Shown: one piece after another, positions 341 to 17,400 of the stretch
Position numbering within the stretch: position 1 is the stretch's first letter
How the letters are laid out: each line of letters opens with the position of its first letter
NCBI GenBank assembly: GCA_026770585.1
Contig: MU646386.1
Span: 853,377-873,467 of the forward strand
Reading direction: 5' to 3'
Length of the DNA: 20,091 nucleotides
Origin: Baffinella frigidus
Taxonomy: Eukaryota > Cryptophyceae > Cryptomonadales > Baffinellaceae
Position numbers and translations under genes: made by a program
The notes under the pieces: model-generated
What the model was told of the DNA's origin: nothing
The model's database searches: none
What the model saw: only the letters and a program-made list of their open reading frames with translations

Positions 341-540
341 CCCTAATTCAGTGTATCTATCGGATAAGACCCGTTCCTTATCTCAAATGACCCCCTCATT
401 CAGTGTATTTATCGGATAAGACTCGTTCCTTATCTCAAACGACCCCCTATCTCAGTGTATTTATCACACGAGACCCGCTCCTTACCTCAGACGACCCCCT
501 AAAGCAGTGTATTTACCCGCCACGACCCGTGCCTTACCTG
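339..540. repeat. 52-bp tandem repeat, four copies, carrying a splice-donor-like site
   Basis: Units begin at about 339, 391, 443 and 495 with CCCCCT, then CAGTGTATTTAT and CGTTCCTTA. The fourth merges into the real exon 30 donor. On the minus strand the units carry GAGGTAAGG or GAGATAAGG, copies of the donor of exon 30. Confidence 0.85.
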
Positions 541-608
541 AGGAGGTTGGACCAGACAATCTCGAGGTTGTCCTCGTCGATCTCCTCCCGCTTGATCGAC
601 TCCGAAAC
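538..608 (-). CDS. Channel exon 30: last traced tail exon
   Basis: Residues 696-718: VSESIKREEIDEDNLEIVW then SNLL. Acceptor ATGCAG. The 3' end reads CTCAG then GTAAGG, a good donor in phase 2. If it is not spliced, translation would end almost at once at the TAA inside the donor (534-536), giving a natural C-terminus after one Arg. Both endings are possible. Confidence 0.75.
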
Positions 609-14400: not shown

Positions 14401-17400
14401 GGGAGACACTGTGGGCCAATAGTAAAGTCACTCCGGCTATCTTACACGGGTCTGTGTCTCCAAAGGACACCTGACCCTAAAACCTTGACCCTTTACCCTA
14501 TCCCGTCACCCTTCATCCTTTACCCTAACCTTAACCCCCAACCCCTCGGTTCCCCATGAACCCAAGCCCCTCCATGCAGGGGTTAGGGGTCAGGGGTGAG
14601 GAGGGTTGACTGAGTGTGTGTGAAAGAGCCGCATGTGATTCAGGGGAAGAGAGGAGCACCTGAAACAACACGAAGTTCATGAAGAGGCAGACGATTCAAT
14701 TTGAAACACGTTTGGTACGAAATCTTGCGAGTGGTGTTGGCAGACAGGTGCGCGACTATCGGGGTGGGAGAGAGAGACTTTGTGTGTGTGAAAGAGCCTC
14801 AGGTGATCAAGGGGATTAAACGGGACAGAGCGGCACCTGAAAGCTGAAACTTTCTAGTGGTGGGGCCAGCCCCCCGCCTCGACCCCCGCGACCCTTCACA
14901 GTGCTGCCCCCGGTGGCTGCGAAGAGGTGAGCGACTATCGGGGTGGGAACCTGGAAGACGACGAGGCTCATGAAGAGGCAGCAGAAGAGGAAGTACATGG
15001 TCAGCGCGGTGTAGTCCTTCACTAGCCCGGGCCTGCACCCCATCCATTCAGCTTAATAGGCGCCACTGCGAATTCGCGTTAGGAAAGAAGAGCGGTAGAG
15101 GATGCCTGTGGTCAGCGCCGTGTGGTCCTTCACCAGCCCGGACCTGCGATTTCGGAACATCCCCGGATCAACCAACCGCGCGCAGAGGAGGAAGGATAGT
15201 AAGAAGCAGAGGATGAGGACTGTGGTCAGCGCCGTGGAGTCTTTCAGCAGCCCGGGCCTACAATTTCCTCGCTTGGTCACCCTCAAGCCTTGATATAAGT
15301 GATCCACTCCTCTGTACCAGACTGTGGTTAGCGCGGTGTAATTCTTCACCACCCGGGCCTGCACCCCATCAATCGATCCATTCAATCGATCAACCAACAT
15401 GGCTGAATCAGTACAGCTGAATGGGTGCGTGACAATACCCTGCACCACAAGTGCGAATTTTGTACTGCTAAGAAGCAGGCGAGGTTGACAGTGGGCAGTG
15501 CCGCGGAGTCACCAGCCCGCGCCTGCGTCCTCTCGTGTGTTACTCTCGAGCCTTGAGGTACGTGATCCAATAGTCTATGCGCCGTATACGCACCCGCCTC
15601 AGCCGGGGCGTTCCAGCGCGTCGATGGTGTGCTCAAGGTTCACGTCGACGGTTTGGATCGCCTAGCTCTGTCCCAGTAAATTTGGGCTCGCCATTATTTC
15701 GCCCCCCCCGAAATTTCACTAGTGAATTTTAATATCCCCCCATGAAATTTACCTGTAAAATTTCGGGGGGGCGAAATAATGGCGAGCCCGAATCTAAGTG
15801 AGACAGAGCTAGATCACCTCCCCCGGAGTTTCACCCACGCCAGGTCACAAACGGCGGAACGTTCCGTTCTGAAATTCGCAGGTGTGGTCTGGCGCGGGGC
15901 GTACGGTCTGGCGTGGGGTGTACCAGCGCTGCTGCTCTGGGGTTAGCGCTTTCGGAGGTTTCGGCTGAGTTAAGGGTATAAGGTTCAGGGGGGGTGCACC
16001 AGGGCTCCAGCTTGTTGATGATCCGTTGACGGTTTCGGGGGTTTTGGGTTTCGGGGGTTTCGGGTTTCGGGTTTATGGTTTCGGGTTTCGGGGTGAGTGA
16101 AGGGTTCAGGGTTTGGGGTTTAGGGCGCACCAGCGCTCCAACTCGTCGATGGTCCGTTTCAAATTGACATGCACTGGGTAGATGTCCTCCTCCGGGTTCT
16201 CCGCTGTGAGGGTTTGGGGTTTGGGGTTTAGGGTTTGGGGGTTGGGGTTTGTCAACTTGCATCCCCCCCCCACCCGCCAAAGTTGACGGGTGGGTTATAT
16301 GGACGCAGAGTGTCAACTTGAGAATAGCTATTGTCAAGTTGACACCAGCCAGACACCAACCGGAGTATCCGGGTTTGTGGTTTTGGGTTTCGGCGAGCGA
16401 CGGATCTCCTCTGCGGGGGGATTGTGATCACTTGCTTTTCCGAATTGCTCTCGGGGCAACGAAAACTACTGTACAGATGCTTTACTTTTACTAGTATGCG
16501 CCAACCCACTCGAGGCTAGAAATGTGACAATTTTAAAACAGGGGTTCCTTTACAAGTGAAGGGGTGTGTAGCAATTTTGAAGGGGGGTGTGGTAATTTTC
16601 ACACGAATAGTCGCGTTTGGTCACGTAGCTGCGGGATATCCCGCAGCTAAGTGACCAAACCCGCCCGTGACTGGTTCAAATTTTCACAACCCAACATTTA
16701 AAATACTCTCTCTTCCAGCCTGGAGTGGATTGTACAGTAATTTTCGCTGGTTTTCGCTAGTTTGTTCATGCTAGCAATAGTAAAGCGTTTGTGTAGTGAT
16801 TTTCGTTACCCCAAACGCTATTAATTATCCGTCGTGCGTTTGAGGTTGAGGTACGCCGAAGTGATCTCCTTATCCGGGTTCTCCGCTGCGAGGGTTTGGG
16901 GTTCAGGGTGTGGGGTGTGGAGTTTCGGGTTTCTGGTTTGGGGTTTGGGGTTTAGGTTTCGGGCTTCGGGTTTGGGTTTCAGGGTTTCGGGTTGAGGCGA
17001 ATGACACCACGCGCAAAACATCACGGGGACCTCCTAGCGCTGCCCCCGGCGGGTTGTCTGAGAAACTCTTCACGATATGACGTCCCAGGTTTGCGGTACA
17101 CACCCGTCAACTTTAGGGAGGAAAAGAGCCCGGCTTGAGAGAGAGAGATAGAGCGAGCGAGAGAGAGAGAGAGAGAGAGCGGGGAGATAGCGCCGATGCC
17201 GCGAGGCCGCGGGGGGCAGGGTTCGCGGGGGACAGGGTCAGCGGGGCGCTCACGGTCTTTCTCGCTCCGTGGGCTGCGAATGGACGTCTTGCTCTGGGTG
17301 TCGCCCATGTTTTTCGACGTCCCTTCGTGCGCGAGCTTGCTGCCGCCCCCCCCCCCCTCCAAGGCCTGCCACACGGGGGACGCGTCAGACCCTCAACACT

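Follow-up and report, generated by a model that had tools for sequence, protein, structure and literature searches.

Partial exon copies in the introns of a polycystin-type channel gene of Baffinella frigidus: probable relics of tandem duplications over exon-intron borders

The stretch of DNA from the Arctic alga Baffinella frigidus analyzed here (20,091 nucleotides, positions 853377-873467 of contig C84 in a genome assembly of 382 Mb and 1364 contigs; hereafter, the window) carries on its minus strand a gene for a polycystin-type cation channel. The introns of this gene contain 33 partial copies of the exons that they adjoin, derived from 17 of the 31 modelled exons. These copies, which we call ghosts, align with their parent exons over 25-83 bp at 72-97% identity (Table 1). 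They are probably relics of repeated short tandem duplications over exon-intron borders, persisting as half-exons that splicing would not see.

Partial exon copies in the channel gene

The product of the gene is identified by the Pfam domains PKD_channel (2e-15), Ion_trans (5e-14), and Polycystin_dom (1.1e-7). The starting model was built by hand from 30 phase-consistent exons on the minus strand. Two proteins came up in a protein search: P0002, which carries the name "Polycystin cation channel-domain-containing protein [Baffinella frigidus]", and P0001 (794 aa, 2,551-nt contig). The hand-built model is identical to both across the aligned parts. Since the exons are spread over about 17 kb, the short contig means that P0001 represents either spliced RNA or a prediction with the introns removed; we infer the former. 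P0001 extends past the left edge of the window, and the 5' end of the gene (X1) lies at about 18726-18740, to the right of exon X2. The two proteins ruled out E10 of the hand-built model as a coding exon and added exon 3160-3234 (E25b); with the 5' exon X2 included, the final set has 31 exons. The stretch 10409-10448, which resembles an exon, is a ghost of E11, and an apparent non-GT (GA) donor came from a falsely assigned exon, itself a ghost. All ghosts sit within introns of the model, and P0001 contains none of them.

Matches between exons and adjacent introns on the sense strand were found in 23 of 62 pairs, versus 2 of 930 for non-adjacent sense introns and 2 of 62 for adjacent introns in antisense. 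The acceptor end of the exon is kept in 18 of the 19 upstream ghosts and the donor end (within 6 nt) in all 14 downstream ones, the rule being obeyed by 32 of 33 ghosts. For instance, the E3 ghost at 15184-15257 extends to nucleotide 77 of 82 but lacks the donor. For 32 of the 33 ghosts the alignment includes no more than a single splice dinucleotide, the exception being the doubtful ghost of E28. Tandem duplication of a segment that runs from an intron into an exon necessarily leaves an upstream acceptor half or a downstream donor half. Under an automatic rule, 19 of 60 sense comparisons in the window gave a match, 15 of them with this geometry, three labelled as full and one against it, and there was one antisense match. 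An earlier note on this window was right in claiming that the introns hold partial copies of the flanking exons, that each copy adjoins its parent in the same orientation, and that it usually keeps either the acceptor or the donor side.

Table 1. Main features of the window and the catalogue of ghosts (nt, nucleotides of the parent exon)
Feature	Position	Strand	Remarks
Polycystin-type cation-channel gene	538-17864	minus	31 modelled exons, X2 (17807-17864) to E30 (538-608)
Telomere-type repeat tracts in introns	1-17253	minus	CCCTAAA mainly on sense strand
Ghost of E2 (16131-16203)	16830-16885	minus	nt 1-60, acceptor kept, upstream
Ghost of E2	16000-16027	minus	nt 46-73, donor kept, downstream
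Four ghosts of E3 (14951-15032)	15085-15141, 15184-15257, 15325-15358, 15470-15522	minus	acceptor kept
Ghost of E3	14660-14690	minus	nt 52-82, donor kept, downstream
Two ghosts of E4 (13971-14060)	14160-14210 (92%), 14319-14372 (88%)	minus	nt 1-51, acceptor kept
Ghost of E5 (13313-13380)	13548-13585	minus	nt 1-38, acceptor kept
Ghost of E5	13139-13191	minus	nt 16-68, donor kept, downstream
Two tandem ghosts of E6 (12414-12514)	12614-12654, ~12782-12823	minus	~nt 1-41 (by eye), homologous intron spacers
Ghost of E6	12966-13010	minus	nt 40-96, yet upstream: sole geometry exception
Ghost of E6	12249-12282	minus	nt 67-100, donor kept
Ghost of E8 (11539-11597)	11083-11127	minus	nt 11-55, downstream, GT lost
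Ghost of E9 (10883-10954)	10737-10772	minus	nt 32-66, downstream; 74%, one of the weakest
Ghost of E11 (10248-10298)	10409-10448	minus	acceptor kept
Ghost of E16 (7715-7762)	7841-7866	minus	nt 1-25, acceptor kept
Ghost of E18 (6678-6763)	6902-6984	minus	sole clear full-length copy; acceptor AG lost, donor GT kept
Ghost of E18	6422-6477	minus	nt 31-86, 96%, donor kept, downstream
Ghost of E20 (5581-5682)	5832-5891	minus	nt 1-60, 90%, upstream, AG lost
Ghost of E23 (4226-4315)	4507-4569	minus	nt 2-64, 97%, acceptor kept
Second ghost of E23	4697-4760	minus	weak; acceptor side only when flanks counted
Two ghosts of E25b (3160-3234)	3074-3110, 2975-3012	minus	nt 36-75, donor kept
Ghost of E27 (2209-2262)	2335-2367	minus	nt 1-27, upstream, AG lost
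Possible ghost of E28 (1679-1753)	1859-1927	minus	AGCAGC-rich, gappy, doubtful
Three ghosts of E29 (1248-1328)	1128-1187, 982-1044, 822-893 (GT lost)	minus	donor side
Two ghosts of E30 (538-608)	310-341, 225-263	minus	donor kept
CTAGCTCTG-ended element, sites 1-5	1776-1895, 4822-4873, 6338-6393, 7072-7217, 8475-8544
CTAGCTCTG-ended element, sites 6-10	11129-11280, 15662-15812, 17033-17133, 19483-19618, 19698-19842

The substitutions in the ghosts have the pattern of dead copies set against constrained parents, and the ghosts look neutral. For 31 of the 33, the difference from the parent exon amounts to 13.8% at first, 10.3% at second, and 21.7% at third codon positions (third versus the rest, p = 2.8e-6), with a dN-like value of 0.121, a dS-like value of 0.274, and a ratio of 0.44; a ratio of about 0.5 is expected for a free copy of a constrained exon. 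Frame is shifted by 39 of the 47 indels. The AG or GT of the kept side is present in 25 of 32 ghosts (14 of 18 on the acceptor side and 11 of 14 on the donor side, the ghost at 12966-13010 being omitted because neither side is countable). About 72% is expected at roughly 85% identity, and splice-site retention was therefore rejected as a sign of function. In P0001 and in the hand-built model, no new spliced exon or intron is seen to have resulted from a ghost. There is also no indication of a dispersed family of the introner kind, as the ghosts match the adjoining exon (their copy number was not searched genome-wide), or of mRNA-derived copies with joined exons, as each ghost corresponds to one exon and many carry an intron flank (no dedicated search was made).

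In flank alignments, a copied part of the intron is seen with many ghosts. Among 30 neighbouring pairs of intron segments, compared with telomere-type DNA masked and 200 shuffles each, the pieces flanking ghosts were alike beyond all 200 shuffles in 11: downstream of E3, at E4, upstream of E5, at E6 (two upstream and one downstream), on both sides of E18, and at E20, E25b, and E29, some of these matches being short (16-23 nt at E29 and downstream of E6). Beside the downstream E3 ghost, for instance, the intron DNA is duplicated too (14593-14647 and 14761-14815). The spacing of copies is 85-291 bp in 28 of 30 steps and 460 and 682 bp in the remaining two. Both E4 ghosts end at nucleotide 51 of the exon, and two E6 ghosts end, as judged by eye, near the same base at about nucleotide 41; such common stop points are as in one repeated unit.

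Copies in other genes

An exon finder trained on the channel gene, 28 of whose 30 exons it recovers exactly in this in-sample comparison, was applied to other contigs. It yielded two dynein heavy chains, L029 (AAA_6, 1.2e-77) and L032 (AAA_6, 3.1e-9), and a DcpS-like gene in L023 (DcpS_C, 5.8e-8, with Pfam run on the first 236 of 404 predicted residues). L031 is a third dynein heavy chain with large exons, according to AAA_6 matches and peptides. L025 has no Pfam match and its strand is set by the exon finder alone, and for L011 and L020 gene and strand are not established; neither L011 nor the plus strand of L020 serves as evidence here.

Under fixed rules, the three Pfam-named genes contain 14 sense matches in 70 exon-side pairs, 12 of them with the predicted geometry, and two antisense matches. 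All six other regions together contain 28 sense matches in 163 pairs, of which 20 fit the geometry, plus three antisense ones, after two more matches were discarded as low-complexity or telomere-type; L031 gave no match in 31 pairs. In a looser pass, eight region-strand sets together yielded matches in 49 of 192 pairs in sense, in 13 of 192 in antisense, and in none of 192 when random introns were used. The exon at 1334-1426 of the L029 dynein gene and its 94% identical ghost share, by eye, upstream intron DNA, which a telomere-like 15-mer interrupts next to the exon and a 10-nt repeat next to the ghost. Matches of the ghost kind thus occur in five of six other stretches, and the pattern is not confined to one gene. 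The check on other genes that the earlier note had called for accordingly finds the ghosts again on other contigs. A second, profile-based protein search returned no other protein named Baffinella, and scans of viral contigs found no sister-strain locus.

Origin of the copies and of the telomere-type repeats

A duplication running from an intron into an exon would put a piece that starts at the acceptor and ends in mid-exon upstream of the intact copy, and a duplication on the donor side would leave the mirror-image fragment downstream. Slippage, end joining with local copying, or unequal exchange may have caused the duplications. Having one splice site, a half-exon would not be recognized as an exon and could persist, whereas complete copies would be spliced in and lost to selection, so that mainly half-exons would stay. 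The repeated local duplication at exon-intron borders that the earlier note had proposed is well supported by the common strand, the adjacency, the partly tandem intron units, and the recurrence in other genes.

If duplications of the observed periods are placed at random with random breakpoints, a calculation blind to copies that now serve as real exons, 10.4 whole-exon copies are expected in 30 steps and one clear copy is seen, the broken ghost of E18; by exon side, 8.4 are expected in 21 (P(<=1) = 1.3e-4). Five ghosts had been labelled as both-ended by the script (15184-15257, 12733-12823, 6902-6984, 1859-1927, and 822-893), and on inspection of the alignments only 6902-6984 was accepted as complete, the other four labels being rejected. 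The shortage supports, but does not prove, removal of complete copies by selection, which would act on them because they would be spliced in.

Several observations weigh against this explanation. With the four labelled copies among the tested steps included, the shortage is less marked (P = 0.005 by step, P = 0.027 by side), and when the periods are multiplied by 0.6, which allows for later growth of spacers, the expectation drops to 4.1 copies, with P = 0.037 for a single one. Of 60 pairs of local direct repeats, 35 take in exons versus 23.0 expected under random placement (P = 9e-4); for pairs of at least 90% identity the figures are 13 of 15 versus 5.7. In this count, which omits telomere-rich repeats, pairs of exon and ghost diverge at roughly half the rate; the excess leaves room for a preference of duplications for borders. 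The geometry is violated by the E6 ghost at 12966-13010, by 4 of the 19 matches of the automatic rule in the window, and by 8 of the 28 matches in the other regions, and the looser pass at L025 gave seven sense and seven antisense matches of 45. Finally, the spacer repeat does not exceed all shuffles in 19 of the 30 comparisons, and the intron flank that the 97% identical E23 ghost has in common with its parent is no longer than 5 nt. In these places plain tandem duplication would require later turnover of the intron; the spacers and the E23 flank could reflect either such fast turnover or a copy-and-fill origin.

The introns of the gene also contain repeats of the telomere type, with the unit TTTAGGG/CCCTAAA. 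Counted as exact heptamers in any rotation over the 30 introns from X2 to E30 (15110 nt), CCCTAAA covers 1837 nt of the sense strand versus 46 nt for TTTAGGG, that is, the antisense orientation. Heptamers occur in 24 of 30 introns in sense versus 3 of 30 in antisense, and in no exon. In 15 of the 24 introns, no more than 20 nt separate the donor from the first heptamer, and in 12 the last heptamer is equally close to the acceptor. For the break repair or template switching with addition of telomere-type repeats that the earlier note had thought possible, the pertinent observations are the presence of heptamers in 24 of 30 introns and, in L029, the telomere-like 15-mer that the ghost lacks. Telomerase may add the repeats. 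In six regions, CCCTAAA is in excess in 75 introns and TTTAGGG in 4, with 20 tied or empty, and the orientation tracks the gene strand, both minus (the window, L023, L025, and L031) and plus (L029 and L032). This strand lock can be read as the product of the same filter that would discard complete exon copies: CCCTAAA has neither AG nor GT, TTTAGGG has both in each unit, and thus repeats with the C-rich strand in RNA would be retained. The scores of TTTAGGG under the splice matrices of the gene speak against such a reading, being weak both as an acceptor (2.1; real sites have a minimum of 1.5 and a median of 5.0) and as a donor (2.0; minimum 2.5, median 5.4).

For the strand lock alone, it is possible, at rather less than even chances, that the orientation is set by replication or transcription polarity and not by splicing, with replication polarity as the main rival to the filter. 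A review describes the instability of interstitial telomere tracts in yeast as dependent on their orientation (PMC6410037). However, replication would have to be co-directed with transcription in each tested gene, while the orientation follows the gene strand on minus- and plus-strand genes alike.

Break repair of a copy-and-fill type (polymerase-theta-like or synthesis-dependent joining) is an unlikely, though not negligible, source of the ghosts. A nearby exon edge would be copied as a templated insertion, with filler that includes telomere-type repeats. The short flank of the E23 ghost would fit such an origin, as would the 191 nt between E23 and this ghost, whose best match elsewhere in the window is through its telomere-type part, the lack of a clear repeat in 19 spacers, and the telomere-type DNA near many splice sites. 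But templated insertions could vary in exon end, side, and strand, whereas the ghosts follow one geometry with few adjacent antisense matches, and 11 of the 30 spacers are tandem.

It is very improbable that the ghosts are functional alternative exons, mutually exclusive or poison, that regulate the channel. P0002, an NCBI gene prediction, does take two ghosts (14334-14372 and 982-1023) as coding exons, and coding constraint on ghosts could contribute to the excess of third-position substitutions; the latter is equally expected with constraint on the real exon only. The ratio of 0.44, the prevalence of frameshifts, the lack of a second splice dinucleotide in all but the doubtful E28 ghost, the absence of excess in retained AG or GT, and the absence of ghosts from P0001 all argue against this role. 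An assembly artefact or chance similarity is hardly credible: tandem repeats assemble poorly and the genome is a draft, but the identities of 72-97%, the near absence of matches in non-adjacent introns, the recurrence on other contigs, and the agreement of the exons with P0001 and P0002 contradict the refutation by chance or assembly error that the earlier note had envisaged.

Other features, known systems, and implications

P0002 also reads through the E23 donor. Its use of 5' exons (17254-17867) differs from that of P0001, which lacks AYARIKRIKERLKKKKALE; this points to splicing variants, a difference between alleles, or an erroneous prediction. The coding exon E23 holds an internal repeat, GGGAACAYCGACCTCGGG in two copies (by eye), as if duplication had also reached the protein. 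A local duplication of 300 nt (18163-18440 and 18504-18806, 67%) takes in the first-exon region X1. Judging by eye from open frames, the segment at about 18954-19471 is likely the first exon of a divergent plus-strand gene, and from 19100 on CCCTAAA is on the plus strand, the sense strand of that gene (107 versus 7 nt).

A short element of about 140-160 bp with CTAGCTCTG-like inverted-repeat ends, full or partial and in both orientations, looks like a MITE (miniature inverted-repeat transposable element) family, and stretches resembling it (query 1792-1889) occur on two other contigs. The intron between E5 and E6 contains a long GAA microsatellite (13053-13110, by eye). Intron palindromes were found at 16612-16663 (92%), 16310-16345 (94%), and 15662-15812 (78% self-complementary). 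Rfam gave nothing on the window at gathering scores.

We know of no report of a genome with such copies in gene after gene under a one-splice-site rule. Exon duplication that leads to mutually exclusive exons also gives copies that adjoin the parent in the same orientation, but there both splice sites and coding constraint are kept, whereas at least one splice site is absent in 32 of the 33 neutral-looking ghosts. Searches of an open-access library brought up no title or abstract opening that describes the ghost pattern; this does not prove it to be unpublished.

The statement of the earlier note that no described mechanism yields the pattern is too strong, since tandem duplication alone gives the upstream-acceptor and downstream-donor geometry, and a duplication crossing a border is on record. 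In the potato RdRp gene, as described by Ma, Lan and Niu 2016 (PMC4974935), a tandem duplication that took in the 3' end of one intron together with the 5' part of the exon after it left an upstream partial exon copy. That was a single event with a new spliced intron from a cryptic donor, whereas in the Baffinella gene 17 of 31 exons are involved, on both acceptor and donor sides, with varied divergence and with copies within existing introns. Tandem duplication is a recognized route to new introns (PMC3443670), and in a model of this kind internal tandem duplication remodels the exon-intron structure (PMC4974935, PMC3443670). There, duplication of exonic AGGT segments creates introns; in Baffinella, existing borders are crossed and introns enlarged. 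Direct repeats at or near exon-intron borders are described by Rogers and Bendich 2025 (PMC11782384) as 4-30 bp repeats at both intron ends, read as footprints of insertion; the ghosts are longer pieces of single exons (25-83 aligned bp) copied into the adjoining intron. Introners likewise enlarge intron content with repeated DNA, and the terms Baffinella, cryptophyte, and Guillardia are all absent from the searched text of one introner paper (PMC9860276). Interstitial telomeric sequences are telomere-type tracts within chromosomes, introns included, according to a review (PMC6410037), while in Baffinella such tracts occur in most introns of the gene and are nearly strand-locked to transcription. 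The published assembly of strain CCMP2293 is given as 534.5 Mb, larger than the one used here, with a BUSCO (Benchmarking Universal Single-Copy Orthologs) coverage of 72.3%, and the word "intron" is absent from the main text of the genome paper as far as a term search covers it (PMC9756366).

The earlier note had overlooked both the strand lock of the telomere-type repeats and the scarcity of complete exon copies. The former (75 versus 4 introns) is a simple and strong regularity that wants an explanation. Proteins predicted from the Baffinella genome may be wrong, as P0002 illustrates with its two ghosts. Intron lengthening and the tolerance of intron change are usually studied from few dated events; here one gene offers 33 oriented relics of duplication with graded divergence, which may be a fossil record of intron growth, and a count of surviving versus lost duplications could serve as a natural test of how exons are recognized. 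Tentatively, and with somewhat less than even confidence, we suggest that Baffinella introns are open-ended recording tracts written by duplication and telomere-type addition, with the spliceosome as the sole editor: complete exons and repeats bearing AG and GT would be erased, and half-exons and C-strand telomere repeats would remain. If so, these introns would read out directly which additions exon recognition sees and which it misses.

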